Shown one piece after another: positions 15,692-57,898 of a stretch of DNA of 64,000 nucleotides. The translations under genes and the position numbers were made by a program. The stretch comes from Dillenia suffruticosa (Eukaryota; Streptophyta; Magnoliopsida; Dilleniales; Dilleniaceae): positions 15,805,398-15,869,397 of the forward strand of contig JAVTVX010000026.1 of the NCBI GenBank assembly GCA_033439265.1, in the 5' to 3' direction. The notes beneath the pieces were generated by a model that did no database searches, was not told the origin of the DNA, and saw only the letters and a program-made list of their open reading frames with translations. Positions within the stretch are counted from its first letter, which is position 1. The number at the start of each line of letters is the position of its first letter.

Positions 15692-15692
15692 A

Positions 15693-23900: not shown

Positions 23901-25585
23901 GCGAGAGACTCCAATCCAATGATCCTCCAAAAAAGGACAAGGAGATCATCACCCACTCTAAAAGACAAAAGAGGAAGAAAAATATGATATAACTGAGAGA
24001 CAAATTTTGAATCTGAGATATGAATCTATATTGGCATCCCATCCATTCTGTCAAAGAGACCATACTTAATTCCTGATAACCTCATTTTATGTACCTTCAT
24101 TTTAAAATCTATCACTTAAGCGGATTGCATACCATATTTTTATAGTATTATACAGTTCCAATGCCAAGTTTGTTTTCACTGCCTATTCATGAGGGCAAGA
24201 GGTAATGACCAAATCCTAGAGCTTTAAGCTATGAAAGAAATGAGACAGATGCATAAAGTTAGATTAAAAACAAGCCAGCAAGGTGGATGGGATTAGATTG
24301 TTGGTCATCCAATTCTTTTCCATGTGAGGGTTGAAAGATTGTGGTTATCCGGTAGATAAAGACATCAATATGTCTTTGCTTCTAATATCAGTTGAGAAGA
24401 AGAGATTTAGGTATCTACAGTTGTGTCCCTTGCTTGATCGGTTGAAAGGGAAGCTAGAACAAACTAGTTAGGCTGGAGCTTACCAAAAGGCTGCAGACAG
24501 ACTAACTGTGGTGGTCAATTGAACTGGTGGACAAAAGACTGTACAACAAGAGTGGTTTATAGCCCCACTGAGGGAATGAGTTCTGAATGAAGGTGGCCTT
24601 AATTGAGTTTACTGATTGTGAAATAATTCTTAGAAAAGAAAAATTTGTCATCTGCTTTCGTGTTAAATAATGTTGCTGTTCTTTTTTTCAGGTATGCTTA
24701 CCCTTGGTGGAGAGAAAAAGAGATCGTTTCTGAGGAGAAACGAGCTCAAGGTTTATGTCCTCTTACCCCAGAAGAGACTGCATTAGTTCTGCGTGCTTTG
24801 GGGTTTGATAAGGACACCCAATTTTATATTGCATCTGGGGAGATATATGGGGGTGAACGGAGGCTAGCAGCACTAAAAGCGGAATTTCCACGAATTGTGA
24901 GTCTACCTGTATTCTACATTTTGTACTACATTAATTTGTTCTCTGAAACCTGATGTCATCACAGCCCATTTTTGGATCACTATCTTGAAAATTGTCCTCA
25001 AGGTCATACAACTCTATTTTTTTTTTCCTGGCATCATGTATGGAATTTAAGACCTAAACATAACAATTCCAGGCAAAAAAGGAAATGATGCTAGATCCAG
25101 AGGAGTTGCAACAATTTCAGAATCATTCATCGCAAATGGCAGCCCTTGATTTCATGGTTGCAGTTGCTAGTAATATTTTTGTTCCCACTTATGATGGGAA
25201 CATGGCAAAAGTAGTGGAAGGTCACCGTAGGTAATTTCTTCCTTTTCCCTCAACTTCATCCCCCAGTGTAATCAATCTTGTAAATTGAATTGTTTCAAGA
25301 GAACCTTCTCATTAGATCAAACGCAGGTATCTTGGCTTCAAGAAAACCATCACACTGGATCGGAAACGACTTGTAGTGTTGTTGGATATGTATCAGAATA
25401 AGACACTCTCATGGCATGCATTTGCAGTTGCTGTTCGTTTGGCACATGAGAAAAGAGTGGGGCAGCCTACACGCCGCAAAGTAATTGTTGAGAAGCCTAA
25501 GGAGGAAGACTACTTCTATTCAAACCCTCAAGAGTGCCTTTGTGAGAGCACAAGCTGTGATGATTTGCTTGGCTCTGTTAACTAA
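17922..25585 (+). CDS. Plant O-fucosyltransferase family protein (GDP-fucose protein O-FucT-like, GT106 type)
   Basis: Eight exons: 17922-18186, 19264-19331, 19411-19499, 19605-19767, 22396-22685, 24692-24896, 25073-25230 and 25327-25585. They join in frame to 498 residues. Residues 26-49 form a single hydrophobic anchor, so it is a likely type II Golgi protein. Family blocks follow in order: [54 protein letters not shown], and [14 protein letters not shown] at about 263-276, whose Arg is the expected GDP-fucose contact. Then come [50 protein letters not shown] and [14 protein letters not shown]. The acceptor is unknown; relatives act in cell-wall and signalling glycosylation. The large introns 4 (19768-22395) and 5 (22686-24691) carry LINE debris. 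I chose the ATG at 17922 because it precedes MEVRSEG and avoids the GA-encoded extension. Confidence 0.92.
19940..21440. repeat. Degenerate tandem duplication inside O-FucT intron 4
   Basis: Blocks recur in the same order. TTCTCCAT..GCACCAAAGCC is near 19966 and 20773. CAACAGACTGACTT is near 20133 and 20669, with a weaker copy near 21367. A block ending TTTTTGAA..TGTGGA is near 20448-20535 and 21048-21145. The first copy is interrupted by an RTE tail at 20228-20430. The period is roughly 600 bases. Confidence 0.65.
20228..20430 (+). mobile_element. RTE-type LINE 3' end fragment
   Basis: Matches, in opposite orientation, the tail of the LINE at 38719-40510. Shared pieces are TAGATATTTATCTATTGATTT, a T-rich stretch, CTTTTATCTATCTTTTTCAA, CTCAAATG.CCGATCC and a terminal GTTGTTGTTG run. 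Only the 3' untranslated part is present, as expected of a severely 5'-truncated insertion. Confidence 0.8.
23390..24065 (-). mobile_element. L1-type LINE remnant (reverse-transcriptase zinc-binding region)
   Basis: Minus-strand translation of about 23450-23640 gives [19 protein letters not shown] and then [13 protein letters not shown] recognise this as the zf-RVT segment that follows the reverse transcriptase in plant L1 elements (family FIWKSKVPPKVKAFAWLVAH, KVNTNDLLQ). Flanking sequence toward 24065 is consistent with the preceding variable region but has stops. It is a dead fragment within O-FucT intron 5, antisense to the host gene. Confidence 0.75.
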
Positions 25586-26361: not shown

Positions 26362-27909
26362 TCAACTCTTGGGTTCCCAGAAAATGATTTCCCCTTGTTC
26401 CCCAACCAGACCAAGATCTTCGAGCCTCCTTTCTTGGTAATATTCCAAAGCATCCAATTCCGACTCCATATCCTTGAAAATCTCCCCTATTTGTTGAAGC
26501 ATCCTTTTCTCCCCCGCTCTTATCCCAACAGCTATCTCCAGCCTTGGACTAAGATTCCCTCTTTTTCTCAAAGTCTTCATCCTGCAAAATGCATCTGCAC
26601 CGATTAGCAAGTACTTAGAGCAGAATAGCACTAGAAATTGCTATTTGTCTTAGCTTGTGACTTGGAAACCAACCATCAGCACATTATTTTGCGGAATTAC
26701 AAACCACAGAGATACAGATGCTACACTCAATCATGTTTCCTCAAGGTCAAGGAGTTCTTTTAAGATGTTTAGAAGATGCCTAGTGACTTCAAATAGGACA
26801 TTATGAAGTTAAAAAAAATTGTGTTCAAGGTAATATATTCCAGAATCAGCTATATATTTTCTGGCAAAAGCAGTCAATCTACTTCTGAGCGTTAGATAAC
26901 AGCTGATCTAACTGCGGTATGCCAATTTTTGCAAAGATAAGTGGATGCCTTTTTGAGCAAAACTGGTTTAAGCAAGCAAGTGATACTGCAAGTTGCAGTG
27001 TGAATAGACCAAGAGTTTTACCTGATTAATTGTAGTGTGGAAGCCCGAAAGTTCAGCTTTGCAGGCATCGCGGACCACCCTACATATAAGCTCCTCATTG
27101 GCTGCACTCACGGGCAATTCAAGATGACCCCAAATTGTGTTTCGAAAAAGAGATTCCAACAGAAAAGCATCAGTTCCTCCAAGTGCCACCAGACGAAGAT
27201 ATGGAAGCATTTCTGGTGGAAGAGGACAGCGCAGCACGACATCAAAATATGCAGTGCCACCCAGCCCGTTTGAGTTGGCAATGTCCAGCTTATCCCCATA
27301 AAAAGGGTCGGACTTGGAAATCTCTAGTGTTAGTGTATAAGCATTGCGATTAGAATTACAGAACAAAGGTACGCGACCGAAAATCAACTAATGCTTCCAA
27401 ATTGTGTACTTAAAGCAAAAATTAAGCAAACCCCACCAAAATATGGTAGAATCAGTCTCCTGTGGGAGAAGATCAATCTAAACCCTCCACTTAAGAGTCC
27501 TCTGTTAACTTTTCCCCAATCAAGAACAGAGCAACAGAAATCCACGGCTTCAAGCCACTACAAACTTTTCCAATTTCCGACTCCACAGCAGTATCTGGGT
27601 TGAACCAAAACTTGTTGGGCACATCCAAAACGACCTCGTTTTTGCCAATGTCTCTCTCGGCTATCAAGCCCAGACCTTAAGGGCCTACTCCTGGCCTTAC
27701 TAGAGTCTTGGCAGGACAACTCCTTCGCTAGAAAGCCACAGCCAGAAGGTTTGTACTGCCGGGGTAGAGGGTCGGATTCCGGCGAGTGAAGGGAGCTGAT
27801 GAGAGAGAAAGTGCGTTTATGGCATAGAGAGAGAAAATGGGTTTTTTGGGGTCCTTGTACGAGAGAGAAAGACAGAGGATGAGAGTGAAGATAACAGAGT
27901 TGAAGACAT
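26362..27909 (-). pseudogene. Pseudogene of Rubisco/aldolase lysine N-methyltransferase (SET domain)
   Basis: A broken copy of the gene at 35815-41152. Exon 1 remnant: 27437-27909, starting ATGTCTTCAAC at 27909, with frameshifts and stops (for example a TAA where the intact copy has the Glu of PEGLGL, and another after EDS). It still shows LGLIAERDIGKNEVVLDVP and FWFNPDTA. About 60 bases of intron 1 then join directly to the middle of exon 5 (about 27022-27355; RNAYTLTLE, GGTDAFLLESLFRNTIWGHL, LICRVVRDACKAELSG). Exons 2-4, with the SET core, are therefore deleted. Exon 6 (26362-26581) begins correctly but has a one-base insertion before the GNLSPRLEIAVGI block. The later blocks LEYYQERRLEDLGLVGEQGE look close to the family consensus as I remember it. 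Confidence 0.92.
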
Positions 27910-28146
27910 TGCCGGTTTCTCTCTCCCTCTCTGGGAAAGAAGATGAGAATTGCCAACGTGGTTTCAGTGGCTCCTGCTCCGTGAATAGACTTTTCGATTT
28001 CGTTTTTTTGAAAATCAAACCCACGAAATCGTGGCGTTTGGCAGAGTACAAAATCTACGTGCATTCCAAAACCATGTCGTTTTTGGTTGGTATCTTTTCT
28101 TAAGAAAAACGTGGCGCTTGGACGTGCCGAAACTCAACCCTTAAAG

Positions 28147-28156
28147 ACGACGTCGT
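28147..28156. promoter_or_regulatory. ACGACGTCGT palindrome upstream of methyltransferase pseudogene
   Basis: A perfect 10-base palindrome about 240 bases upstream of the former ATG at 27909. The same motif precedes the intact copy and the bL32m gene. Its GACGTC core is a bZIP-type site by general knowledge. Function not shown. Confidence 0.5.
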
Positions 28157-28299
28157 TTACGTTTTATTTCATCAACGCGGCGGAGGGGCTTTTCGCCCCT
28201 TCCGCCCACGGGTCGCTATGGTGAAAATGCAGAAATACTTTAAATGAAGCAGAACGTTGTCTCAATTAAAGAGAAGCCCATTGGAGAAATCGGGAGAGA

Positions 28300-28302
<3 letters not shown>

Positions 28303-28336
<34 letters not shown>
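28303..28336 (+). repeat. (GA)n microsatellite upstream of the methyltransferase pseudogene
   Basis: Pure GA run about 390 bases upstream of the former minus-strand ATG at 27909. Confidence 0.95.
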
Positions 28337-28338
<2 letters not shown>

Positions 28339-29000
28339 GAATTGTAACTTTCGATTGCTTTTCTTGAGATGAAACATAACTTATTCTTTCACTTTTCTTT
28401 CCTTCATTTTTCTCTTTAAAATTAAATTTTACAAATAATTGAAAAATTAAAATAAGATAATTCTCTATTTTACATGTATTTTTTTATTAATAGGAAATAT
28501 AAAATTTGTAAAAGTGTTATCAATGTCACCTAATTAATTAGGTGTCCCGTATAAAACAATTTTTGTATAGTTATACTATTGATCCATTATATATGATTGG
28601 TATATTAGTGAATGACATAAATCTATTTCCAATATCCCCTCCTTGATATCATAATTTAAAAATTCAAATCTCCCTTGATTTCATAATTTGAAAATTCAAA
28701 TCTTGTTATAAAAGAAAATGGCATAAACCCAAGAGAGTTGAGATTGGAGTAAAATTCTTCTCCTCTAAACAATGTTCAAAGTGGAGAAATTTCAAATCCC
28801 CACATAAAATTTAGTTGACATATTGCATAATATATTAATTGTTAAGTAAAATCTTTTTAACTTTGCATATAAATAAATAAATGGAAGTGATTAGAATTAT
28901 TATTGAATTTTAAATTTGGGAAAAATTAGGAACCTGATGTCTGATGAAATCAATGTCCGAAGAGTAATCATCATCATCATTATTATTATTATTATTTTTT

Positions 29001-29176
29001 GATTTTTATCATCGGTATCTGAGTTTTACCTGACCAATTTAGTTCAAATACTGTATGACTCATTTTAAAAATTGACTATCTCAATTTTTTTTTCGTTATT
29101 CTCATAACTTGAATTCAAGATTTCTGGTTAAGGAGTAGAGTGTTCGATTATTCAATTCAAAAGAGATCGATAGAGT
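29001..29176 (+). repeat. Dispersed repeat, copy 1
   Basis: About 170 bases with the blocks GAGTTTTACCTGA.CAATTTA, AAATACTGTATG, TTTTTTTCGTTATTCTCATAACT and GAGTAGAGTGTTCGATTATTCAA. Diverged copies lie at about 47215-47372 and 54925-55082. I see no coding capacity, A-tail or terminal inverted repeat. Identity unknown. Confidence 0.6.
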
Positions 29177-30234
29177 AATCATTTTTTGATTCGGTAAATC
29201 ATAAAACATCTAGATCTACGTCTTTGGATTAACCCACAAGTTCTTCATTCGTCGGACAAAACTTAAATTTAAAACCTCATTTTCTACTACCGAAATCTTC
29301 TCTATTTTGTTTTGTTTTATTTTTTATTTTTAAATCTGTTTGATTCTTTTTTTTTTTTAAATAAAACCCTTTTTTTTGGGGGGGGGGGGGTTGGGAAGGG
29401 TTAGGCAATAACCAAGTCTTGTAGCACCATATGAGGAAGAGTCCTGAAACATAGATGGAAGATCATTTATATTTACCTACCTTTCTAGAAAGTCATGTAA
29501 GAGAACAAATTGTACTTGGTTTTCCCTGGAAATTCATTTAATCCAGTAGGAACTTTTTGATCTGAACATGAAATCTGACAGGTCAGGGATCTAAACCCCC
29601 GTTTCAATTGGTAAACAATATAGGATTCAAAATCTAATTTCTAGTAATTGCATTAAGAAAATTTTGAGCTCACACACAGCAGGTGGGGTATTCGTGTTTT
29701 TATGTAAATTTCTAAGTACATGGTCAAGTCAGAGGCCATGTGCACAAAGAATGAGTGGACTGAGATCAGAATCAGAAAATTCTTCATGGGAGAAAAAGAG
29801 AGAGCAAAACTTCCTCAAAGTGAACACATGGTGAAGAGTAGAGAAGAGTACGGATGTTTTCCTCTGATTTTTCTTCATATTCTTCATGTGACATTGTCAA
29901 TGCGGACTGCTTCCATCCTCACACAGTATCTTTCCACACTGCCAACTACCTCCTCGTCTCTCTCTCTCTCTCTGATGGAAAAATGGTGAATGCAAGCCGC
30001 CATGCGCAGCCTGCTTTCATCCTTGACAGCTGAAAAGGTCTGATGACTCATTTGTATATAAACAGGAAGGTTTGTCTACCTCTTCCGGGGTATTAAACTC
30101 TTCTTCTCTCGAAAGCTTGATCTGTTTAAGCAACAGAGAAATCCTTGCATCCACAAAGCAATCCAGCTCCCAATAATTCCGTTCTTTTTCCAGCCATATA
30201 GCAATATAAACCCCCCCCCTCCCAAAAAAAAAGT

Positions 30235-33200
30235 ATGAAGTTCGGGAAAGAATTTGCATCACAAATGGTGCCTGAATGGCAAGAAGCATACATGGATTAC
30301 AATTATTTGAAAATCTTGTTGAAAGATATCCTAAGGTTTAAGCAAAGAAACAGAACACCAGCTACAGTCAATAGGCTACAGAGAGCGTTAACATATTATA
30401 GATGTTTCAGTGGTCTAACAAAATATAACCATGTAAGTCCAGCATCATTAGACATTGAAAATCAAGTGATTCATGTGAATGAATCCATGCAAGATGGAGC
30501 GGACAAAAGCTATGAGACAGTGTTTCTAATGTCACAAGATGAAGGAGGGGAATATGAGCTTGTATACTTCAGAAGGCTTGATGATGAGTTCAACAAAGTT
30601 AATAAATTTTATAAGTCTAAGGTCGATGAAGTGATGAAGGAAGCAGATATGCTGACTAAGCAACTGAATGCCCTGATTGCTTTTCGGATAAAAGCCGAGA
30701 ATCCTCAAGAATGCTTTGATTGTTCTGTTGAAATGGCTAGTCTAGCTTCAGATGTGGCAGCTTCAACTGCAGCATTATCGGCTTCAACCCCGTCTAGTGC
30801 AAAAGCAAAGGGTAAGCATTTTTTCCAAGCCTAGAAGCATTTTCTTTTTGTCATCAAATAGTCAGAAAGCAAAGTTAAATTCATAGAAAGAGCTTATAAA
30901 GATTATATGTCATTCTCATCCTCAATGTGCAGGAATAGTGCATATGGACACAATCGAGGAAGGTGATCCAAGCAGCCAACCAGGGCAGTCTGACTCTTGT
31001 GATGATGAAGATGACAAGGAGACCAAACCTACACATGAAAGTGTTCCAGAAGAGAAGGGGAGGAAGAAGTCGATAGCTGCTCTTGTTAGACCACCACCCC
31101 TGGAAATACTTAGCCATGTCAAATTAAATCATGCCCTTGAAACTCCTCGTTCAACCATCAAAAGACTGCTGAAGGTTTCCAAAGACACAGAACTGATTTT
31201 TGATGACAAGGATCAACTCAAGAGAGTTGAAGGCAAACTCAAGCAGGCTTTTGTTGAATTCTATCATAAGCTACGGCTTTTGAAGAGTTATAGGTATCTA
31301 TGATTTTTGTTTTAATTATGGAAACTATTATTCCAACTAGACATGAACCTAATGTTTAAGTGGATGTCTGAAACAGCTTCTTGAATCTGTTGGCATTTTC
31401 TAAGATTATGAAAAAGTATGACAAGGTAAGCCTCTTTGTTAAGCGGGAGATCAGGATGGCAGATGGTACAAAAAATGATTTGATACTACAGAGCTATGAT
31501 GGCATTTTCCGCAACTAAGTTCTTTGTTGGCTGGTTGCTGCAGATCGCTTCAAGAAATGCCTCAAAGTCTTACTTAAAAATGGTGGATGAATCAAGCCTT
31601 GGCAGCTCTGATGAGGTAAGTTCAGATAACCAACACCAACCTAATTCAATCTCTACTCTTGCCAAACCATCATAAGGATAGAACCTAAATCTTCCTTGAG
31701 TATTGATCTTAGGAATGACAAATCTCTTTGTTGAGGTTTAGTAGTCCAACAAAACATCTATAGCTTAATGGGACTTTTTATTTCCATGATAGATTACAAA
31801 GCTTATGGAGAGAGTGGAAGCTACTTTCATCAAGCATTTCACGAATTCAAATCGACGAAAGGGGATGCAAATCCTGAGACCAAAACCAAAAAGAGAACAT
31901 CACAGAGTAACATTTTCATTGGGTAAGATTTTAACATTTTCATGTATGCATTCTTTAGGTTAAGGATATTACACATTTGATGCTAATGATTCTATTCCCT
32001 TAAATGGAGAATAAAACTATGAGATTCAGACATGTTAACATTTAAAATTTTCAGGATTCTTTGCTGGCTGCGTAGTGGCACTCATTCTTGCCCTTATCTT
32101 GATTATGCGTGCCCGAGATATCCTAAATCATGAAGGTGGTACACGGTACATGGACAACTTGTTTCCCCTATACAGGTACATATAATCATAATTCTGCACC
32201 AACACTCTTTTCCTAGTGTCCGATACAAATGCTTTCAATTCTTGTTCCTGAAGAAAGAATTTTGCCTTTTGATGATTTATGCTTTTTTTAAAACAGTTTG
32301 TTTGGATTCATTGTTCTACACATGCTTATGTTCGGAGCCACAATTTACTTCTGGAGGAAGTACCGGGTCAATTATCCATTTATATTTGGCATCAAGCAAG
32401 GAAGTGAACTAGGTTATCGACATGTTTTCCTACTCGGCTTTGGCCTAGCAGTATTAGCACTAGCATGTGTGCTTGCAAACCTTGACTTGGAGATGGACCC
32501 AAAATCAAAAGACTACAAAGCATTTACTGAGCTTCTTCCTCTCGGACTGCTTTTAGTTAGTATTGGACTCAACCAACTTCTTGTCTGCTCTAATCCTCCC
32601 CAAGTTGATCATAAACATTTACAGCTTGATTTTCTCTGGTTTGCAGCTCTTAATCATAATATTATTGTGTCCATTTAACATAATCTATCGCTCAAGCCGT
32701 TACTTCTTCCTCATATGTGCCTGGCATTGCATTTGTGCTCCTCTGTACAAGGTAAAAGAATTACACTAACTTCCCTCAAAATGGAAAATTCCAAACTTGA
32801 TTTTTAATGACTTCATGGGTCTGCAGGTCACACTTGCAGACTTCTTCGTGGCAGACCAAATGACAAGTCAGGTACAAGCAATTAGAAGTCTTGAGTTTTA
32901 TGTTTGTTACTATGGCTGGGGAGATTTTAAACACAGACAAAACTCCTGCAAATCAAGTGCAGTTTACAACACTTTCTATTTCATAGTAGCTGTCATTCCC
33001 TATTGGAGTCGCCTCCTCCAGGTAAGGCCGCTTGTTACCTTAAAACAGTATATGATCAATTCCTATTTAGGATTTTTTATGCCCACTTAATTAGATGCAC
33101 TTACTTGATCCAGTGTCTTAGACGATTCTTTGAAGAAAAAGATGCAATGCAGGGATATAATGGGTTAAAATACTTTTCGACAATTGTAGCAGTTTCAGTC

Positions 33201-33803
33201 AGAACTGCCTACAGCCTTAATAAAGGATTGAGTTGGAGAGTAATGGCATGGATTTTCTCAGCCATAGCAGCAATCTGCAGCACATATTGGGACTTAGTCA
33301 TTGACTGGGGACTTCTGCAACGAAACTCTAAAAACCGATGGTTAAGAGACAAGCTCCTTATCCCATATAACAATGTTTACTTTGGAGCTATTGTGAGTAA
33401 TAGTATAAAACCAAATAGGTTTACTTTGTGTGTTAATAACGTGCTTCAGAATTTAACCTTTGTGAATCCTCTCTAACAACGTAGATCTTAAATGTCATGT
33501 TGAGATTTGCTTGGTTGCAAACTGTGCTGGATTTAAACGTGACTTCCTTACATAGAGAAGCTATGGTGACCATTGTTGCTAGCTTAGAGATCATTCGTCG
33601 TGGCATATGGAACTTCTTCAGGTAAACTTAGGCTAATGATCTAAGTGGCATGATAAGAATTTCCGAAGTTATACTAACTTGTTTGGCTTCCTGTGTCATT
33701 AAGGTTGGAAAATGAACACCTAAACAACGTTGGAAAGTATAGAGCCTTCAAGTCGGTGCCCCTACCTTTTAACTACGATGAAGATGAAGACAAAGACGAG
33801 TAG
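30235..33803 (+). CDS. PHO1-like phosphate exporter (SPX and EXS domains)
   Basis: Twelve exons: 30235-30811, 30933-31293, 31377-31425, 31544-31615, 31793-31922, 32055-32175, 32297-32555, 32647-32751, 32827-33021, 33114-33392, 33485-33621 and 33704-33803. They join in frame to 794 residues, the usual PHO1 size. The SPX domain spans about 1-330: it begins [20 protein letters not shown] with the basic helix [12 protein letters not shown], and ends near [20 protein letters not shown] and [10 protein letters not shown]. Several membrane segments follow ([53 protein letters not shown]). The EXS domain carries [45 protein letters not shown] and [13 protein letters not shown]. By family knowledge it moves inorganic phosphate out of cells (xylem loading), with SPX sensing inositol pyrophosphates. 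Sequence suggests the PHO1;H branch, but which member I cannot say. Two pseudogene relatives lie downstream. Confidence 0.95.
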
Positions 33804-35814
33804 CTATCCCAAACTTCCAACAAGAGAAAAATTCAAAAGAGGATACAGAGAATATGAATTTGCCTTGTCTTCCTTTTCAAGGGGAAGAATATTCAATAAG
33901 GTTTTTCCAAAGAAGTGATGGAATTCACTGTTTTCAAGTGTGATTTTTCTATTGTTCTATTCAATCCACGTGGATGTAATCCTTCGTTTGTAAATTAATT
34001 AATTTTCTTAATGAAGAAAACTTTGTTTAACCTAACAATTCAACACACACTGCACATTCATGGATTTGCATGAATCTCTGCACTCACCATGCTTTAATCT
34101 GCCTATGTTTACTAGGTAGAGGTAGAATAAAAATTTATATCCGGGAGCGAAATATTTGTATTAAGAGTTAATAATTTTAGGGAGGAGATAAATTAAAATA
34201 TTTAGTGGAGCAAACGATATTTAAGCTTTAATTTGAAATTATATACAATTCCTTTCCTCAAAAGTTCAAGGGGGTGGGAGCCTGCCTTCACCTCCTTCCT
34301 CCACCCCTGCTACTAGGAAAAGAGAGAGACAACTCAAAGGTTCTCTCTCTATGAATGCGGTCGCTGGTGCTAACCCTGTCTGTCCAAAAAAAGGAAGGAA
34401 ACCACATAGAATAAAGGCTTGTTCATTAAAATCGTGCTTTGCCTCTACAACACAAGGTCACTAGCAAACCCTCGGTAAGATCTCAATCTTCTCGTATGAA
34501 ATATGAACTCTTCAAACTCCTTTATCCTTCTTATTAAAATCAATCATAGTTCCGGAAAAAACCCAGGTCATATGTAATTGTCACAAACCCAGGATGCTCT
34601 GAAAGTTAGAAGGTACCAACCAGTCACCACAGACCATATGAGAGTATTCTGATGGTTCACAACGATTTTTCTTTTGTTTTTTTTGGTTTCTTGGATTGGC
34701 CACTGTTCAGTATCTGGAGTTTCGTCTCGACTAATCTGGATCGATCGCTGTAAGCTCTATTTTGTGAGGACAACTCTCCCAACATTATTTTATTGGTATT
34801 TAAGGGAAGTCGAACTTCCAACCTGCTTAAGAGACGAAAATGCATATCTCACTTACATCAACAATTATCGATCATCCAGGTTCCAAAAAAAAAAAGAAAA
34901 AAAAAAAACAAGTGTTGGTTGCTGGTCACAACGTTGTCATCATTGGAGAATTGGAAACTTGCTTGTCCCTTCAAAAGTCCTGTTTTACAATTAAAATCTA
35001 ATTAAATACCCAATTGTCAAAAGTCACAAAACGGAAAATTTTGATCTATTAAATTGCATCCATCACTGACCAAACAAAAAGGCTCATTTCTCTTCACGTA
35101 TCAAACAAGAGCCTGCAGTCAACATCCTTTTAAACCGACTTAGTGTTCTATTGCAAACAATATTTTGTCAAAAATATATCACAAATATTCAAATTATTTT
35201 TTTATTGAAAAAATATATAAAATAGCAAAAGTTCTGGATAAAAGGATTTTAAATTTGATTCCATTTCCTGCGGAAAAAAGGGGTGGGGGGGAGAGAGAGA
35301 GAGAGAGCGCCCTGCTAGAAATGGAATTCCACGACACAAACCTTCGCTAATAAATGTTTGTCGGGATCCTGGGTTGCGGAGATGTGAAGGCACAGGCAAA
35401 AAGAAAGAATAGGCTGACAAAACTAAAAGGAGAGCATTTCAAACTATGATACGACGTTGCATATGTACATTAATCCAAAGCATGAAAAGCTTAACCGAGT
35501 CTGGAACTGAATGTTTCACTAAGGTAACAGGAACATGATGAGTCTTTTTTTTTTCCTGATAATTAACTCGATTCTCTGTGGTAGGGATAAACCAGTTCCA
35601 GTACCACTTTCCCAGTAAGATCTCACGCAGTGGACTATATTTGTTAATCAAGAAGAAACTAGTCTTCACATGGTATTCAAGGGCGTGTCTGTTCCATGTG
35701 ATTGTGTTGAGCTCATGCAGTGGAAAAGCTGGCGATGCTGCAATAGTAACACGCAAAAAGCTAGCTGCTAACCATTTTAATGATTGTCAGGAAATTGGAA
35801 GATATTTCTTGCTC
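33804..35814. other. Spacer between convergent PHO1-like and methyltransferase genes
   Basis: 3' flanks of both genes. It contains A runs near 34889-34909 and a short (GA)n preceded by a G run at about 35280-35307. Small open frames on both strands have no recognisable similarity. No gene seen. Confidence 0.55.
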
Positions 35815-38800
35815 CTACTTAGATTCGGATAGGATGGATTCCCCCTTCTGACCAACCTGACGAAGTTCTTTGAGCATCCTTTCTTGGTAATATTCCAATT
35901 GATCCAATTTTAATTCCCTTTCTTTGAAAATCCCATCTATTTGGTGAAGCACTTTTTTCTCCCCGGATCTTATGCCAACAGCTATCCCTAGCCTTGGTCT
36001 GAGATTCCCTTCTGTCATCAACTTCCCATCCTGCAAACCCAGTGGGCAAAAACTCTATCAGTTAGGGCACCAAAAGGAGCTATGTAATGATAAAGTTTGA
36101 AATGGCAAACAAGAAGATGCATTAGCAATCACTGAAGACACGAGATCAAGTACTGTGTCAACTAGATGTTTACATGTTTTGATTACAAGATTTAAGACTT
36201 GACAGCATGAGCAAGTGAAATTTGAGCTTGGACCCCATAATATGATCCTTTAAGATAAGAGAAGTATTAGCTTGAAACATTCATAAAACAAGGTAAATTT
36301 TCCTGTGATCAGATTAATCCAACTGAATTAAGCCACTATTAACAGAAGCAAGACCAGTTGGTTGGAATGCCAAATAAGCATTATTACATAAGCCACATCT
36401 TTCATAAATCAAAATAATTAAACAAGCACAGATAAGGAACAGGAAATATTGCTATATGCAAAATAAGATTAAGAGTTTACCTCATCAATGGTGGTGGGAT
36501 AACGAGAAAGTGCATATTTGCATGCATCTCGGACTACATTGCATATAATCTTCTCATTGGCATGGCTAACTGGAAATTCAAGACAACCCCAAACTGAGTT
36601 TCTGAGAGATGGTTCCAACAGAAAAGCATCAGTTCCCCCCAATGCTATCAGCCTCAGAAATGGAAGCATTTTTGGAGGAATAGGACGGCCCAAGAGAATT
36701 TCAAAATCTGCAGTTTCATCCAATCCATTTAACTTGGCTATATCAAGTTTGTCCCCGAAAAAGGGGTCAGAACCAGGAACCTCAAGGGTTAGGCTATATG
36801 CATTGCGGTGGGGTGTTGACTCTATAAAACCATAATCCAGAGCCAATTCAGCATTTGTTTTTTTCAAACCATATTGGATAAACACCTGTGGCAAAAGAGA
36901 GAGAAGAGTGTCAAAGACAAACAGACATTATAGTATGATATCTCATTCACCAACAGATTACACTCCAATAAAAACTAAGCAGATCAAGTTTGATTCTGTA
37001 TTTAAACACTGCTTATCCCTGAATACCTTAAAAGCATGTGAGGCTTCATAACCATTCACAAATTCATCATCAAATTTCCATTTGCCTTGGTTTTTCTGTA
37101 AGGGACTTTACTATCTGTGCTTTAGTCTATACGACCATTTAGGTCCATGAAAGATAAGGATAGGAGAGTAAATGATCACCACTTTGATAAACATCATCTT
37201 TAGAGAGGCATTTGAGGATTTGGGACATTTCACCTGCTCACCGGCCTTAACAGAAACAGTTGTTCGCAGTGAAAATAGGAGATCCCAGGAGAAAAGACCA
37301 GCTGGTCCTGTTCTCTCATGTATGTGATCTTCACTGGTGATGCCAGCACTGTGGTTGATCTAATCATATCTCAAAAAAGTTAATAGATAGAAGATTAAGT
37401 CCCAAGCACATCAAAATAACACTGCAAGATTCGACATCGTTTCTTTCACTACTGCCATGGAGGCTTACTTGCCAGATTGTGCCACTTAGTCAACAAAAGT
37501 GACAATTGAATTCAGAGTGACTCTACATAATCTGGTTTCACATCCATGTCAAAACTTTTCAAAGGGATAAAAGTATCTCACCAAGTCAATAAGGGGAATT
37601 ACTACAAGATTTTGACCTTTAAGGCGGGAGAATGCCCTAGATCTTAGTATTCCATATGCCCAGAAGAAGTCATTTAGAGTAATGGCAGATGGGAATAGTT
37701 GCCTATTAGGGATGATGATTTCTGCTTCAACCTTCATAAATTCCATCTGCACATACTCTTTCACATTCAATGTCGTGCTCAACAATTGTGTTCCTGCATA
37801 AGTTCACTTCAAAATCAAATTATTGTCATTGTAGAGAATGGTATGTATAAAAAACAGGAGGTCACAAGAAAACAATGTCACATAAGCAATTGGTTTAATA
37901 AACACACTATAACTGGTTAAGAAAAAATACTCTTGAGGTGTGCAAAAAGACATAAATTTCAGGAAATTAACAGATACGCTGACTGGAAATAAAAATTAGA
38001 GAAAAAAAGTGAAGCCACAGATAGCCGTAAGAGACTAACCTTGAAGCTCGGAGAGCTCCTCATTTGACCTGCACTGGAAGGACCAGAGAATTGCTCATCA
38101 ACGGAAGAATGTCCAACTCACCAACTAGTCTACAACATACTTTGAGATGGAATTATTTAAAGAACCCAACATCCAACCACAAGAAATAGGCAGACTAATT
38201 CAAAGCTTGGGTTAATTAGTTAGGAGCAAAACAATACACCTTGTTCTTAATTCCCACAAATTTACATGAATCAGAGTTATAAACCTTAGATTTGCAAACA
38301 AGCAAAATTTCATAATGTTGATAATAGAGATAAAAAATGATCCGTGACATTTACACTATTTCAAACTGAATCAAACTTGAACCCAAGATTTCCATCGATC
38401 CTTTGATTGAGTGCTATGAGTTCTTGACATATTGGATTCCTTATTACTCATCTTCAAGATCAATAATACTTTTTTGCACATTCGTAAATGATACATACAC
38501 TACACAACTAACTACAATCAATGTAATAAATGATATTGTACATTACGACTATCTAAAAGACATTCAACCGAAAACTACATATATAAGAAACACCCAACAA
38601 ATCAAGGACTATAATATCATCTGTTACGGACATTGCCAACCAAAATAAAAGACCCACAGATTACATTATTCGGTTGTATAACACATATTAGCATAATCCG
38701 ACAAGTTCAGTTTCAAAACGTTACAACAACAATATCAACAAACTGAGATTTAATTCCAATATTTAGGATCGGTCATTTGAGAGACAAATTTGAAAAAGAT

Positions 38801-41152
38801 AGATAAAAGAAAAATAAAATAAAAAATATATATATGTAATAAAAAGAAAAAGAAAAAGAAAAAGAAATCAATAAATAAATTAATAGATAAATATCTAAAA
38901 TATATTGATTTAATTTATACGGATTCTTCTACGCCATCTATTCCTATCTAAGACAATTTTTTCTTCTAAATCCTTAACTTTCATATCTTTACGGATAATT
39001 TGCATCCAAATTTTCAGCGGTCTACCTTTACGTTTTACTATATCTCTTATCTTTCTCCGAATCGGCACATCTTTGAGTCTTTTTTACACATGCTCAAATC
39101 ATCTCAGACGACACTCTCGTATCTTATCTACAATTAAACTAACTCTCAATTTGTTACGAATCTTTTCATTTCTAATTCTATCTCTTCTAGTTTTTCCACA
39201 CATTCACCTAAATATTATCATTTCTGTTACAGTTATCTTTTGTTCCTATTGTTGTTTAACAGCCCAACACTCAATACCATACAATAGTATAGATCTAATC
39301 GCGATTCTATAGAACTTTTCCTTCAAATATAATGTTATCGTGCGATCGCAAAGAACTCCGGATGTCCTTCTTCATTTCATCCGATTCGCTTGAATCCTAT
39401 GTGATGAGATCATCAAGATTACAAGGAATTCACGAGACCGAACTCAAGTCCCAGTTGGGCCGGTGACAAAGACCTGAGTTAAAAGATTCAAAGAAATACT
39501 GAATAACTTAATTCAGGAGGCTTTACAATAAGAAATTGGAGTCCAAATAAATGTAAAACCAAAAGGGGCCTTAATTATGCTTATACAAGCCCAGTTGGAA
39601 GAATAAAAGACCTAAAACTATCCAAAACCAAGGGAGGACGAAAATGAAGAAAAAGAGCAGCAAGACTTGGTCAAAATAGTTTGATTTATTTAGTTTCCTA
39701 ATTTTAATTTTTGTAACTTATGTTTAGTTTTCTAATTCTTTATTGTTTAGGGAGTTACTAAATTTTTAGTTGCCAATTATGTTTTTACCTTTAAGCTATA
39801 AATAGGCCATTATACAGTATGTAAAAAAAAACACTTTGGAAAGAATTAATAAAATTGTGAGGATTTTTCACATAGGTCTTGTTCTTTTGAGAACTTTGAA
39901 CTTATTCAAGATATGAGTTTTGTTTAGTTCTTTGACTTATCAATCTATGTTTTGAACCATCTAGATTGTGGCGTCATTCATTCCATCATTATACCAAGAT
40001 TCTTGATCTAGTGAGAAACGGGTTTAAGGTCATATACCTTAGTTTCTTCCTCCTTTAGGGTAAGGGTTGAGGTTTTTAATTTCACGGGTTCAAATAATTC
40101 GTTGGGACGATTTTTGGGCTAAATTAACTTGTTCGTGGGTTTTAGGGTTTTTATACCCAACGGGTTCACATCACTATGGTTCACATCTCCATCTATATTG
40201 CCATTATTTTGAATAATGGAATCTAGATATCTAAATCGTTCAATTTTGGGTACATGCTGCCCATCTAATCTAATCGTTTATTCATCACTCCTATAATTAA
40301 CGCTAAACCTACATCTCATATACTTGGTTTTCGATCTACTCAATCTAAACCCTTTGGATTCCAGATTGAGTCTCCATAACTCTAATTTAGTACTAACACT
40401 CTCTTTAGTTTTATCAACTAGTATTATATCATTTGCGAAAAATATATACTATGATATTTTATCTTGGATATTTTCGGTGATCCCTGTCTATTACTGTATC
40501 ATCTTGGATATTTTCAGTTTCATGATGTTGGAGACAATAAATTGAAAAAAGAAAAAACTGGCTTTCACATCGTTTCAAACTAAACACCTGATTTCGGAAA
40601 GGGAAAAACAATACAAGAAAATCCACACGAACAAAGATAGATCACATACCCAAAGAAGAACGACTAACAAGCAAAATTAAGCAAAACCCACCAAAATATA
40701 GTCGCATCGGTTGTCTCTGGAAGAACATCAAGATAAATCTTCCACTTAGAATCCTCTCTCAGCTTCTCTCTAACCAAAAACAGCGCAACAGAGACCCAAG
40801 GATTCAACCCATCACACACTTTCCCGATTTCAGAATATTCAACGGTGTCTGGGTTCACCCAGAATCTTCTGGGGACCTCCAAAATGACGTCGTTTTCAGC
40901 AATGTCTCTCGTAGCAATCAGCCCCAGCCCTTCAGGGACTACTCCGGGCTTTACCGGAGTCTTGGACGAGAGAACCCCTTCTTTAGAAAACCAATCCCAT
41001 AAGGCTCGCACGGACGATGGAACTGGATTCGATTCCGCCGAGTCAAGTGAGTTGATGAGAGAAAGTGTGCTCTTGGGACGGAGGAGAGAGAAATGGTGTG
41101 TTCGGTTTTTTGCTGGAGAGAGAAAAACAGAGGAGGGAAATAGAGTAGCCAT
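35815..41152 (-). CDS. LSMT-L: Chloroplast Rubisco LSMT-like / fructose-bisphosphate aldolase lysine N-methyltransferase
   Basis: Six minus-strand exons: 40692-41152, 38040-38068, 37582-37793, 37234-37359, 36481-36885 and 35815-36030. They join in frame to 482 residues, the usual family size. Residues 1 to about 45 are Ser/Thr/Arg-rich and acid-poor, fitting a chloroplast transit peptide. SET-domain blocks: PEGLGLIATRDIAENDVILEVP, LWDWFSKEGVL, the short exon 2 (SNEELSELQG), NDFFWAYGILRSRAFS, the S-adenosylmethionine-binding INHSAGI, and ALDYGFIES with the active-site Tyr near 293. The C-terminal substrate-binding domain has GGTDAFLLEPSLRNSVWG and ICNVVRDACKYAL. The family trimethylates a lysine of stromal aldolases and, in some species, of the Rubisco large subunit. 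The end (GQKGESILSESK) departs from the family's GEQGEIIFWE pattern, which the pseudogene copy keeps. Intron 1 holds a LINE split by a solo LTR. Confidence 0.93.
38719..40510 (-). mobile_element. RTE-type LINE fragment in methyltransferase intron 1, split by a solo LTR
   Basis: Minus-strand translation to the right of the LTR gives broken RT sequence: GITENIQDKI, FFANDIILVDKTKESV (family LFADDIVLIDET), LNLESKGFRLSRSKTKYM, VPKIERFRYLDSIIQNNGNI and DGDVNH. Left of the LTR it continues with EGHPEFFA, KVKDLEEKI-like and RRDRIRNE-like pieces of the RTE C-terminus, containing stops. The catalytic ADD reads AND. The 3' end near 38719-38740 is a GTTGTT-type run in element orientation, matching the tail at 20228-20430. 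The element is same-strand with the host gene and inactive. Confidence 0.82.
39402..40173. mobile_element. Solo LTR inserted in the RTE LINE
   Basis: A 772-base insertion that starts TGATGAGATC and ends GTTCACATCA, flanked by a perfect 5-base target duplication CTATG (39397-39401 and 40174-40178). Removing it rejoins LINE coding sequence that reads on across the site (DVNH then a K/R-rich WMKW-like stretch). There is no internal retroelement sequence, so it fits an LTR left after recombination between two LTRs. Family and strand not determined. Confidence 0.88.
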
Positions 41153-42199
41153 TCTTTCTCCCGGTCGTTATTGGAGTTTCGGATAGGTCTTTCATCTTTG
41201 AATTATGATAAAAACGGAACGCTGAGAAAATCTGGAGAGAAAGAAAATAAAACGACGTCGTTTGGTTGAGTTAAAAAACGTAACAGTTTTTATTTCGAGT
41301 AATGTATTTCTGATAGACGATTTGATAGGCCATAACAGAGCAAACCCCCTTTAATTAAAAATAATTTAAAAGGATAATTAAACTCTTCTAATAATAAATA
41401 ATTTAAAATTAGTATCGGCAATATTAACGACAAACTTTTTTAATAGAAAATATTCTAAAATTTATTCTTTATTAAAATTAATAAAATTTTTAATTCAAGT
41501 AAAGATTTTACTAATTTACTAGTGTCATAGTTGCTTTACTTCCCCCGATTCAAATTATGTTTTTCTTTTCCTCTCTACATGCATCATTAGATTAAATTAA
41601 ACCCAAATCTTGTATAAAAAATTGAGATTAATTTTAATTGAGATCAGAAAAAAAATTTAAATGTCAAAATTTTTCACATAATGATAAATTTAGTCAACAG
41701 GAGCTGCCAATCAACAGGAGCTTGGTCAAAGATATAGCTATTGTATCGCCGCATCTTACTACTAAAGATAAGAGACTTCAATCTGGTACCCAGAAAGACA
41801 GAGATTCCCCACTGGAGCAACCGGCTTTACCACATTAAATTCGGAAGGAGAAAAATGGAATACCAACATAAGAGAACAGACTGAGAGTTTCCTGCAAAAC
41901 TGCAGAAGATTGGGATCCTTAAGAAAGTAATTGCGCTTGAAACTGCAAAATACCTGCACCAACGCTGTTCCTTCACCCACCTTTCATTGATTCAACCTCA
42001 AAGCTAGCTCAACTATTTCGGCTGAAGTTCAACACCAATATCTATAGCATAGAAACAATCAATTTTTCTGAGTAGCAAGTTGAAATATTTGTTCGAATTC
42101 CATTCCCAAAACCTAAAATTGAGAGATGGACCTAAAAGGAAACATTGGAACTCAGGCAACTTTTTACCTAGGCCAACTATTCGTACACCTCAAGAATCA
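41153..42199. promoter_or_regulatory. Upstream region of the methyltransferase gene, with spacer
   Basis: Contains the palindrome at 41250-41263 about 100 bases before the ATG, then AT-rich DNA. By analogy with the first methyltransferase/PHO1 pair, the missing PHO1 exons 1-7 would have lain here, but I find no trace of them. No gene seen. Confidence 0.55.
41250..41263. promoter_or_regulatory. AAACGACGTCGTTT palindrome upstream of the methyltransferase gene
   Basis: A perfect 14-base palindrome about 100 bases upstream of the minus-strand ATG at 41152. It shares its 10-base core with 28147-28156 and 50673-50682. A regulatory role is inferred from position and recurrence. Confidence 0.6.
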
Positions 42200-42770
42200 T
42201 TGATCGGAAATGACCTCAGTTCCTATGCCATGGAACTCTCAATTATAACATTATTGAGCACATTGCTCCAGTTCTGTGGTCCCCTGCACAAGGTAAAAGA
42301 AACAGAAGGGACATCAGAGCAAACATGTTCCAATGGCTTCCTGCAGATCCTGCAAGCACGGTATTCCTTGGCAGACAAAACGATGAGGCATTTATATAAC
42401 CTGGATAGTGTGACAAACCACTCACTTGAACAGCAATTGAATACATGGGAAACACTTATAGAAGTCTACAGCTCTTCTATGTCAGTTGTTATGGCTTGGA
42501 AGATCGACGAAGACAAAACTGCAGACTAGATGGCACTCACAACATAGCTACAATTCCATTATGATTTACTAATTAAATTCCATGCAGCAACAAACAATAT
42601 TATCCGTGTAGCAAGTTGAAGTGTTTGTTTGAATTCCTCCCCCAACACCTAAAATGCAAAGATGGGAAACATTTATAGAAGTGTAGAAGTCTATAGCTGT
42701 ATGTAACTTGTTATGGCTTGGGAGATCCATGCAGACAAAACTGCAGACTAGATGACACTCACTACAATTC
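42074..42770 (+). repeat. Local direct repeat within the PHO1 fragment
   Basis: GTAGCAAGTTGAAATATTTG near 42074 recurs as GTAGCAAGTTGAAGTGTTTG near 42608. TTGTTATGGCTTGGAAGATC near 42486 recurs as TTGTTATGGCTTGGGAGATC near 42710. The second copy lacks much of the exon-9 interior, so it was duplicated and then deleted, or copied after decay began. Confidence 0.7.
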
Positions 42771-43130
42771 CATATTGGAAATAGCTCCTCAAGGTAGTGG
42801 CCTTGTTTCTTCTCCCACTATAAAATGGGCAATCAATTCATGCACAGGAAAAGATTTCTTTATTATGATATGGGCATGCTCAGAGTGTTACTGACCAGCA
42901 TTTCAGATAAATATCTTTCGTAATTAGAGTAGCAGTTGTAAATACCGCCGAGTTTAGACTTGATGCCTGTTTGTAAGTGCTCAAGGCAATCCTTTCTGCT
43001 TCCCTACAGTGCCTCTGACAACCGCAGAACTGAAAAGATTCAACGCAAGGTATTCTACTGAATGTGTGTGTTTTTCCAACCATTAAGCAGTTAGTATAAA
43101 GACAGTTTACAGCCTTGAGAAGGAAGGAAT
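42225..43130 (+). pseudogene. PHO1-like pseudogene fragment (exons 8-10 only)
   Basis: Pieces align in order with exons 8-10 of the PHO1-like gene. About 42231-42291 matches exon 8, ending CACAAGGTAAAAGAA like that gene's splice site. About 42345-42530 matches exon 9 (TTGGCAGACAAAACGATGA; CTTCTATGTCAGTTGTTATGG; GAAGACAAAACTGCAGA). About 43007-43125 matches parts of exon 10 (CAGTGCCTC, GAAAAGATTCAACG, AAGACAGTTTACAGCCTTGAG). Frames are broken throughout. The exon-9 part is repeated in shorter form at about 42605-42765. SPX and C-terminal exons are absent. Confidence 0.75.
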
Positions 43131-44507
43131 GAATTCTAAATTTGGCTTTAACAGCAACTCAGCTTCAAATCCTTGATTTCTATTCCTCTCATCCAAGCTC
43201 TAATACCCACAGAGCTTCAATTTCAACTATTCTTAGGTAATTCTCCCCATAAAAAAGCACAAATACATGCACACACGCACACACACACTCCCATTCTCAC
43301 ATACACTCCATGTTCCCCACCCCCACCCCCCAGCCCCCACCCCCGGCCCCCAAAAAAAAATCCTAGGAAGGGGGCAAACAGTTTGCAGCAGTGCAGCCAT
43401 TGGATTCCATTGACTGTGGACCAACATATGGTCCAAGATCCTCTATAAGCCTGCTTGTCCATAAGACATTTTACCGAACAAGCTTGATTGTTGGATGTTT
43501 TCATCCCACATGGTGCACAAAATCAAGTTCTATTGCTAAGAGTTGGCTTCCTGTACTCAAAAGTGTCATGGCTAATTTATTCTTATCGCCATAATAATAG
43601 TTTCCAACAAAACAGATGTTGTGAGAGAAGGATGTTATATTCTTCCACCTATTATGCAGTGATCTATCCAAAGACACTACATTCACGATTTGATACTTCC
43701 TACGTTCCTGTCTCATTTGTCACTTTACCATAGTTTTCAATTGTAGTTCTACCAAAATTGTCACAACCAGTTTTCCACATTCATAATGAGCATAAAGCTA
43801 AAACTTATGCATCACTCACCACCTCAAACCATTCTCCAGTCCTTAAGTAAGCAACTAAGAAGCACAGCCACTCAAATCAAATCCATACCCATGTTCTACA
43901 CCATGTCAAGCACAAAGAAATTTCTCGGAAGCTACCCCTAATTGTACAAGTTCATAAGGACATCAATCAATCTATCGAAGCTACATTTCAGAAGGATAGA
44001 ACAATCCTTCTACAAGGACCCTGTCTAACTCTTCATTTATACATCACATATCAACAAAGTCAAAAAAAAAAAAAAGGTTCCAGATGCTGATGTAGTATAA
44101 CATCAATTGCATGCTTGACCCAAAAAACAATAGACCAAATTGCTCTAATTTTCTGGTTCAAGGTTCAAATTTTCTTCAAAACAGAAAAAGAAAATCTAAA
44201 ATTATGCAACACGATCACATGAATAAGTTTTATTCGTAAGATATCATCCCAACAATTCAACATAACACAAATTTGAATTGCCAGCATCAAAATAAACATG
44301 AAACCAGGAAATCCTCGTATCATTGAACTGACAATTAGATGTTTTTTATATTGATCAGTCAATCTTAGGGATTCAATGGTAATTATTCGAAAAACAAAAA
44401 CAAAAATTCCTATTCCTCTAATCTCAAAAATCTGCAGTTACCTCTTTAATAAAATATCAAAGCCGGTACCGCCCTTAGTAATCATCTCAAAATCAATCAA
44501 AAACCAA
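43131..44507. other. Spacer without recognised genes
   Basis: Includes a CA-rich and C-rich stretch (about 43260-43350) that generates spurious His/Thr and Pro frames, plus the 3' flank of the GCK-domain gene. No gene seen. Confidence 0.55.
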
Positions 44508-45014
44508 CTAATTTTTCTCTGATTTCTTTTCTTCACTCTCCGCTGCCTTCCCCGCCGTGCGATCCACATCCTTCTCCGCCACACGCTCGGCTTCTTTCTC
44601 TGCCGCACTCACGGTCGTGCTCTCCATTTTCCTCTCCGGCTCCTGATCCACCTTCTTCTCTGCCTCGCGCTCAAGCTCCTTGGCAAACTCCTCCTCGGCC
44701 GCCTTCTCCGCCTTTAGAATCGGCTCGTAGTAATCGGAGTGAGCCTCCATACACTTCTTCAACAGACTGGTGACCTCGAAGCACTTTTCGACGATGTCCT
44801 CCTCGTTCTCCTCGGCGTCTTCGACGCACTTTTCCCAGGCGATGAAGGCGTCTTTGCAGCCTCCGCCTTTCATGAATAGACAGAATCCGCACTCTCCCTC
44901 CTCCTCCTCTTCTTCTTCGACCACTTGTCGATTCTCTTTTGTGACATCACTGTCGTCGGTTGGTGGAGGAATTGAGGGTTCAGGTTCCGATGTTGAAGAA
45001 GAAGAAGAAGACAT
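44508..45014 (-). CDS. GCK-domain protein, small acidic Cys-rich
   Basis: A single-exon minus-strand gene of 168 residues starting MSSSSSSTSEPEP. A Ser/Pro/acidic N-terminus with a seven-Glu run leads into a GCK domain (about 40-95). The domain has GECGFCLFMKGGGCKDAF, AWEKCVEDAEEN and VEKCFEVTSLLKKCMEAH, with cysteines at 42, 45, 53, 63, 78 and 88. The spacing suggests a paired-helix, disulfide or metal-stabilised fold. The C-terminal half is a charged Glu/Lys/Ala helix (KAEKAAEEEFAKELEREAEKK and similar). An in-frame ATG at 45092 would add 26 residues (MFEESQTQ...). I prefer the downstream ATG because the Ser-rich start is typical of homologues as I recall them. Function of this plant family is unknown to me. 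Confidence 0.85.
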   Translation of the reverse strand: MSSSSSSTSEPEPSIPPPTDDSDVTKENRQVVEEEEEEEGECGFCLFMKGGGCKDAFIAWEKCVEDAEENEEDIVEKCFEVTSLLKKCMEAHSDYYEPILKAEKAAEEEFAKELEREAEKKVDQEPERKMESTTVSAAEKEAERVAEKDVDRTAGKAAESEEKKSEKN

Positions 45015-56272: not shown

Positions 56273-57898
56273 ACGAAGTTTGGAAAAGGGTTCAAGAGGC
56301 AGATGGTGCCTGAATGGACAGAAGCTTATATGTACAATTTTTTGGTTGGAACATACGTAACATCTTCTCACTGTAGTATAATTTCAGATAAGCATACCAT
56401 AATATCTTCATCTGCAGGTTATTCGTCTTATAACTTCATGCCCCTTTAATATCATATATCGATCAAGTCGTTTCTTTGTCATCCAATGCATGTTTCACTG
56501 TATTTGTGCTGCTCTGAACTTTTCAGTTTCGCAATATCCTTATTCTGGCTTAGGTCCAGGCAATAAGAAGTGTGGAATACTACATTTGCTATTATGGCTG
56601 GGAAGACTCTTCCAGGTAAGACCAGTGTAATAGTGGCGTCTACAATGCGTGCTACTTCATTGTAGCAGTTATACTGTACTGGGCCTGTTTCATGCAGGTA
56701 TTAGCACCACTCTTTACCTTTGTTATTTTGTCTTCTTATTGAATTTCCCCCTTTTATGGATGATATCATGGCGTGTATGAAACGTAACTGTATTCTTAAG
56801 AACATATATTGGCTAAAAAAATAGGCAACTCCATGTTAGAGGGTTAGACAGTAAGACCCGAGATTTTAATGAGCATGGAATTTGTTGTTTAGCATAGCAA
56901 GCCAGATGTTGAGGTCAATAAGCTGACATCAACATATGGCATGATTGGTGGCACTTTTGTTCTTTTTAGGAATCCGCCAAGTGCTATAGGCAGTTAGAGA
57001 CATCCCTAGATCTATGAGTTGACTCTTTATATTTACACTACCAACATCATATGCATTTGGAAGTTATGCCCTTCGGGACTAATATTAGACCCTTTATATC
57101 TTGAAAAAGATAAACAAGAGGCTGGTGTGAGGATTTATGCTGGCTCATTGGCGCCTATTCTCTTCCTGCGCTGCATATATTAGCTTTAGCACACAGCAAC
57201 TAGCATTGCTTGTGAGCTTTTTTGCCTGTACGTCCTTCATGGTCTTAGTTTGCGACTTACCTGCCCCTTCCCAATCGATAGAAAATTAAACACTATCATT
57301 AGAAATGAGTTTTATTTCCAGAAATGGAGGGCCTGATGGTCTGTGATAATGCTGCAGTGCCTCCGGTGACTGTTTGAAGAGAAAGATCCAATTCATGGTT
57401 ACAATGGCTTGAAATACTTCCGGACAATTGCTGCATTAGATCATCATTCGAATGCAGAAAGGGGATAAGCTGGAAGGCTTTTGCATTCTCAGCTCACCTA
57501 GAGCAACAATTGTGAATACATATTGGGATATTGTGATGGACCGGGGTCTCCTGCGAAGGCACTCGAGGAATATTGGTTTAAGAGACAAGCTTGTAGTTTC
57601 ACACAGAAGTGTTTACTTCACAGCCATGGTAATTAATATCTAAAAGCTTTGATCCAATAGCTGTTTCTTTGCTGTCAAACTAACATGTTTATGGGATTCG
57701 ATGCAGGTTATGAATGTCATATTGAGATATGCCTGGCTGCAGTTAGTGCTGATACTTGATGTCATTACGTTCGGCGGAAAGGTTACGTCCATGACTTTTC
57801 CCTGCCCGGAGATACTTCGTCGTAGCATTAGAAGCTTCTTTCAGTGCTCTGGAAACAAAACTGAACAACGTTGGCGCATTCAAGAGTCTGTGCCCTAA
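56273..57898 (+). pseudogene. PHO1-like pseudogene with SPX and early membrane exons deleted
   Basis: Starts with KFGKGFKRQMVPEWTEAYM at 56273, but the initiator is ACG instead of ATG. After about 70 bases it jumps to exon 8 ([20 protein letters not shown] near 56440), so most of exon 1 and exons 2-7 are gone. Exon 9 follows with almost no intron (VQAIRSVEYYICYYGWEDSS, then CYFIVAVILYWACFMQ, ending 56697). Exon 10 is 57358-57626 ([20 protein letters not shown]), with a frameshift before NTYWDIVMDRGLLRRHS. Exon 11 starts at 57707 (VMNVILRYAWLQLVLILDV, ILRRSIRSFFQC). The end is out of frame from about 57850. It is closer to the PHO1-like gene at 30235 than the 42.2 kb fragment is in length kept. 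Not functional. Confidence 0.9.

Follow-up and report, generated by a model that had tools for sequence, protein, structure and literature searches.

In Dillenia suffruticosa, two colinear regions on contigs C26 and C24 each hold one intact gene for a chloroplast-type protein methyltransferase (Rubisco-LSMT type) and one intact PHO1-family gene, and the surviving copies do not correspond between the regions. The arrangement very probably reflects tandem duplication of a methyltransferase-PHO1 pair beside an older PHO1 gene, duplication of the whole region, and then differing losses on C26 and C24. According to this history, an ancestral head-to-head pair, with the methyltransferase on the minus strand and PHO1 on the plus strand, would have been copied in tandem to give MT1-PHO1a and MT2-PHO1b, with the older PHO1c already beside the array. 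PHO1b would have decayed early, before duplication of the region gave rise to C26 and C24. By mutation, C26 would then have lost MT1 and PHO1c, keeping PHO1a and MT2. On C24 the MT1 and PHO1c counterparts would have survived and PHO1a-MT2-PHO1b would have disappeared, most simply through one deletion of ~13 kb.

The repeated methyltransferase-PHO1 unit

The window, a stretch of 64,000 nucleotides within contig C26 of the 596-Mb assembly, has plant-like gene content in the order emp24, O-FucT, LSMT, PHO1, GCK and xyloglucan fucosyltransferase (Table 1). Gene models and alignment of a relic bore out the predicted double occurrence of a minus-strand methyltransferase followed head to head by a plus-strand PHO1: MT1 and PHO1a form the first unit, and MT2 and the PHO1b relic form the second. 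PHO1a and MT2 now lie tail to tail in C26.

Table 1. Positions of genes, relics and other features in the window
Feature	Position	Strand	Description
O-FucT-family pieces	22369..24953	+	two pieces of a gene flanking unit 1; also in C24
MT1	26362..27909	-	LSMT-type methyltransferase pseudogene; Rubis-subs-bind E 3.1e-24
MT1 surviving parts	exon 1 ~27436-27909; exon 5 remnant ~27022-27351; exon 6 26362-26581	-	
Unit-1 intergenic region	27910..30234		between divergent MT1 and PHO1a; partly aligns with C24 up to ~30064
Block absent from C24	30064..43347		PHO1a-MT2-PHO1b; flanks joined in C24 with ~26 nt filler and a C/A tract
PHO1a	30235..33803	+	intact PHO1-family gene of unit 1; 12 exons, 794 aa, GT-AG sites
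PHO1a exons 1-6	30235-30811, 30933-31293, 31377-31425, 31544-31615, 31793-31922, 32055-32175	+	
PHO1a exons 7-12	32297-32555, 32647-32751, 32827-33021, 33114-33392, 33485-33621, 33704-33803	+	
MT2	35815..41152	-	intact LSMT of unit 2; six exons, 482 aa
MT2 exons	41152-40692, 38068-38040, 37793-37582, 37359-37234, 36885-36481, 36030-35815	-	
PHO1b relic	42109..43135	+	unit 2; DNA alignment with PHO1a exons
PHO1b pieces	possible exon 7 end 42109-42142; exon 8 end 42273-42301; exon 9 42684-42786; exon 10 43005-43135	+	
GCK-domain reading frame	44508..45113	-	flanks unit 2; also in C24
PHO1c pseudogene	56276..57929	+	pieces of exons 1, 8, 9, 10, 11 and 12 (PHO1a numbering); stops and frameshifts

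The PHO1 gene of unit 1 is complete, as predicted, and belongs to the PHO1 family: it encodes a full-length N-terminal SPX domain (E 2.9e-74) and a full-length C-terminal EXS domain (E 1.1e-102), and the frame of its first exon is by itself enough to match PHO1;H1 in the PDB (E 1.4e-12). Exon 9 of PHO1a lacks an intron that splits this exon in the C24 PHO1, a member of the PHO1c lineage. The relic carries roughly 70 extra bases at the site of the missing intron (judged partly by eye), so perhaps PHO1a alone lost the intron. MT2 is likewise complete, provided that a 29-nt exon (the second in Table 1) is counted; this exon scored 32, compared with a best score of 21 among 30 base shuffles. The protein contains SET and Rubis-subs-bind domains, both above gathering scores, and with the nearly full-length pea match given below it belongs to the Rubisco-LSMT type. 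Intron 1 of MT2 also holds a dispersed repeat (38728-38913), which is inverted relative to 20231-20429 (83%) and resembles sequence at 60.6-60.8 kb.

Synonymous divergence fell into three classes: ~0.19 between C26 and C24, 0.50-0.76 between the two units, and at least 1.7 between PHO1a and the PHO1c lineage. Between regions, dS was 0.19 [0.13-0.26] for MT1 and the C24 methyltransferase and 0.18 [0.11-0.25] for the 56-kb pseudogene and the C24 PHO1. Flanking genes gave 0.07 [0.01-0.13] and 0.16 [0.06-0.29] for the O-FucT pieces and 0.26 [0.13-0.41] for GCK; regional dS is thus not uniform, one O-FucT piece being low. Between units, MT2 differed from MT1 by 0.71 [0.54-0.88] and from the C24 methyltransferase by 0.76 [0.64-0.96]; PHO1a and the relic differed by 0.50 [0.26-0.87] over 71 codons, a value biased downward because local alignments favor similar stretches. 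PHO1a differed from the PHO1c lineage by 2.7 (lower bound 1.7) for the C24 gene and 1.7 (lower bound 1.07) for the 56-kb pseudogene. Four-fold sites ranked the pairs identically, with 21/137 (0.17) and 13/74 (0.20) between regions, 43/101 (0.63) for MT1-MT2, 6/16 (0.52) for PHO1a-relic and 93/153 (1.25) for PHO1a-PHO1c. Within-array values (0.71 and 0.50) exceed those between regions, indicating that the pair was duplicated before the regions parted.

The original prediction depended on the two methyltransferase copies and the two PHO1 copies having comparable ages. Their dS intervals overlap, with neither pair far older or younger than the other. Order and orientation thus occur twice with similar divergence, the pattern of a tandem head-to-head duplication, with the PHO1 side represented by 71 codons and 16 four-fold sites. 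No homology was detectable between the unit-1 and unit-2 intergenic regions (15 of 60 shuffles scored as well; the alignment, made with loose gap costs, ran through the whole regions, and only the shuffle comparisons were used), and one joint copying event for the two genes would thus follow from their matching age and order. Separate duplication of the methyltransferase and of PHO1, with the alternating array formed by chance, is unlikely. Tandems of two to three genes do account for 55 of 125 Class IA PHO1 genes in one survey (PMC3680083), a class to which PHO1a may or may not belong, and PHO1c was duplicated here with no methyltransferase partner found by tblastn in the window or on C24; the overlapping dS of the two pairs and the repetition of both order and divergent orientation nevertheless argue for joint copying.

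The counterpart region on C24

Fifty kilobases around the C24 LSMT are colinear, in reverse, with most of the window, a length of colinearity characteristic of homeologous regions, observed for the one region pair compared. Whole-genome duplication is the presumed source. The C24 LSMT (486 aa) is intact and occupies the place of MT1, not of MT2. The C24 PHO1 (13 exons, 787 aa, one GC donor) is also intact and sits where the window has the 56-kb pseudogene; PHO1a and PHO1c-lineage proteins are 56.6% identical. These two C24 genes are not counterparts of MT2 and PHO1a, and the block holding the latter is absent, so each region retains a single LSMT and a single PHO1 that do not match those of the other region as counterparts: MT2 and PHO1a on C26, the MT1 and PHO1c counterparts on C24. 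The claim that one working copy of each gene remains is therefore true of the C26 locus, where the survivors are presumably active, but a further intact gene of each kind lies on C24. The survivors on C26 do derive from different ancestral units, PHO1a from unit 1 and MT2 from unit 2. The proposed change in a shared upstream region was not borne out: PHO1a keeps the unit-1 intergenic region and MT2 that of unit 2, each having lost its divergent partner.

Colinearity is also interrupted elsewhere in the window. A degenerate copia-type LTR element at 9266-16189, with LTRs 98.4% identical and minus-strand matches to RVT_2 and gag_pre-integrs, faces an empty site in C24, where homology resumes on either side at almost adjacent bases. 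Approximately 2.5 kb of degenerate pyrimidine-rich repeats occupy 47890-50450, and C24 homology stops near 47.4 kb and restarts at 50.6 kb. A minisatellite at 2140-2785 (105-bp period, ~6 copies) lies in sequence that is likewise alignable with C24.

For window positions 30.06-43.34 kb, C24 contains no colinear counterpart, the matches there being paralogous (to PHO1c and to the one C24 methyltransferase) or short dispersed repeats. Similar C/A tracts precede the PHO1a start codon and mark the right edge of the block, so deletion through these tracts is possible. The alternative, that PHO1a-MT2-PHO1b was copied from elsewhere and inserted into C26 after the regions parted, is improbable. It would account for the absence of the block from C24 and for the tight junction. 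However, the block begins only ~170 bp upstream of the PHO1a start codon; MT2 exon 5, used as a DNA query genome-wide, gave three matches (MT2 itself, the C24 methyltransferase and MT1) and hence no other LSMT source; an LSMT-like gene and a PHO1 homolog bear adjacent locus numbers in Arabidopsis; and the copies within the array diverged long before the two regions did. Loss from C24 would thus be the better explanation of the missing block.

Relics and the order of decay

MT1 lacks exons 2, 3 and 4 (six-exon numbering), as predicted, and in addition ~74 nt from the start of exon 5, whose 3' part is kept. Its exons are 90-93% identical to the intact C24 counterpart. Relative to that copy, five 1-nt indels and two in-frame stops disrupt exon 1 and a single 1-nt insertion disrupts exon 6, the exon 5 remnant being free of indels, in agreement with the predicted frameshifts. 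Searches by tblastn with both intact LSMTs as queries (E up to 1) found no further LSMT pieces in the window.

The reduction of the second PHO1 to exons 8-10 was confirmed by DNA alignment of PHO1a exons 1, 2 and 5-11. Exons 8, 9 and 10 scored 109, 161 and 127, in order and on the plus strand; none of 200 dinucleotide shuffles equaled any of these scores, and all three matches exceeded those in 20/20 control stretches (drawn from 28 available in the window). The end of exon 7 was borderline (7/200 shuffles as good), and exons 1, 2, 5, 6 and 11 gave no signal (144, 179, 184, 176 and 85 of 200 shuffles as good). That these matches arose by chance in a unit 2 that was always without a PHO1 is scarcely credible given three ordered exons above every shuffle and control, even though Pfam (plus strand, 41.0-45.8 kb) and PDB phmmer (one plus-strand frame of 41-44 kb) returned no match and the best tblastn hit for PHO1 at the relic had an E of 1.9. 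A partial second copy of exon 9 lies within 42445-42544; this stretch and 42051-42129 both recur inside 42586-42766 (80-82%), so that the relic is in part internally duplicated.

The relic resembles PHO1a more closely than PHO1c. At discriminating sites it was PHO1a-like at 63, PHO1c-like at 36 and neither at 43, a count that includes badly aligned columns and divides by piece into 10:11 (exon 8), 11:5 and 24:5 (exon 9) and 18:15 (exon 10). PHO1c exons beat shuffles at the relic in 0/5 cases. The 56-kb pseudogene, whose counterpart is the intact C24 PHO1, is better preserved than the relic; it was considered as the second PHO1 of the array and rejected, since exons 8-10 align at 42-43 kb. The four genes originally described for the array stand, with PHO1c as a further PHO1 that the description omitted.

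The dN/dS ratios, which are rough averages over both branches, were 0.58 for the relic and PHO1a, 0.46 for the 56-kb pseudogene and 0.38 for MT1 against its intact counterpart. The intact LSMTs (MT2 and the C24 copy) gave 0.27, or 0.35 on the codons kept by MT1, and the intact PHO1 comparison gave 0.12, a rough value owing to saturation. This pattern suggests that MT1 died late and that PHO1c on C26 died earlier, after the regions had parted. The losses look staggered, with the relic PHO1 early and MT1 late. Tandem duplication, as first proposed, is retained; its resolution in a single complementary step is not, because the relic is far more eroded than MT1.

Two LSMT forms and comparison with known systems

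Of greatest interest at this locus is the putative descent of two LSMT types from a single tandem duplication. Pea Rubisco LSMT (PDB 1mlv, 2h21) aligns over nearly the whole chain with MT2 (E 2.5e-188) and with the C24 enzyme (E 8.9e-208), both of which carry SET and Rubis-subs-bind domains as pea LSMT does. The triad stretch reads TTEDHAYEVKGAAGLFSWD in pea LSMT, TSEDHIHERTGPAGLFSWD in MT2 and TTEDYAYEIKG-AGLFSKN in the C24 copy, so that H-P-W in MT2 is aligned to H-A-W in pea and the C24 copy has Y-gap-K; we take these to be the triad columns on the basis of the pea alignment. A His-Ala/Pro-Trp triad reportedly enables LSMT to methylate Rubisco (PMC11012178). The C26 and C24 LSMTs therefore carry different residues at the motif that reportedly determines whether Rubisco serves as substrate. 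MT2 possesses the triad of Rubisco-methylating enzymes and the C24 copy lacks it, so MT2 is predicted to be bifunctional (acting on aldolase and, by trimethylation at Lys14 of RbcL, on Rubisco) and the C24 LSMT to be aldolase-only. The exon bearing the triad residues is deleted in MT1.

With pea LSMT as the third sequence, private residues numbered 63 in MT2, 30 in the C24 methyltransferase and 60 in pea, an unrooted count that sets no order between the LSMT duplication and the divergence from pea. If rates were even, the deepest branch would not be the C24 copy, a point against the triad form having arisen from the tandem duplication. The triad may have arisen after duplication or in parallel, or the MT1 lineage may have lost it. 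It is conceivable, though doubtful, that the Rubisco-methylating LSMT arose by tandem LSMT-PHO1 duplication and change of one copy, rather than through a single-copy enzyme that took on a further substrate. If so, the genome would keep both forms, MT2 on C26 and the triad-less form on C24, and resolution of the array would have divided two functions over two chromosomes. The presence of both forms in one genome allows one to ask whether duplication preceded the triad change.

In published sources, Arabidopsis locus numbers run At1g14010 (emp24), At1g14020 (PF10250), At1g14030 (LSMT-like), At1g14040 (labeled AtPHO1.3, a PHO1 homolog) and At1g14080 (FUT6). The numbering gives the same order as the window (emp24, O-FucT, LSMT, PHO1, xyloglucan fucosyltransferase), an agreement in gene order, and consecutive numbers imply neighboring genes. 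We take At1g14040 to be PHO1;H3, and a GCK gene presumably sits between the PHO1 homolog and FUT6. The literature search found no paper naming At1g14060 and none naming LSMT and PHO1 together; subscription papers were mostly outside it, and the pair may be described there.

PHO1a shares the SPX-EXS architecture of the phosphate exporters PHO1;H1 and PHO1;H3, a likeness at the level of sequence. Unlike the pea LSMT and Arabidopsis At1g14030 systems (the latter compared by description), D. suffruticosa has two diverged intact LSMTs in one genome; for strawberry, one At1g14030 counterpart is listed (PMC4822149). Events that combine tandem duplication with reciprocal loss are already known. Reciprocal loss after polyploidy is well known, and the term is in use. 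As in reciprocal gene loss after whole-genome duplication, different copies were lost here from two colinear regions; unlike in that process, the loss crosses a tandem array that already existed, which makes the survivors on C26 and C24 old paralogs, not homeologs. Position alone would label MT2 and the C24 LSMT, and likewise the two PHO1 genes, as homeologs, and gene trees and dates drawn from such false homeolog pairs would mislead.
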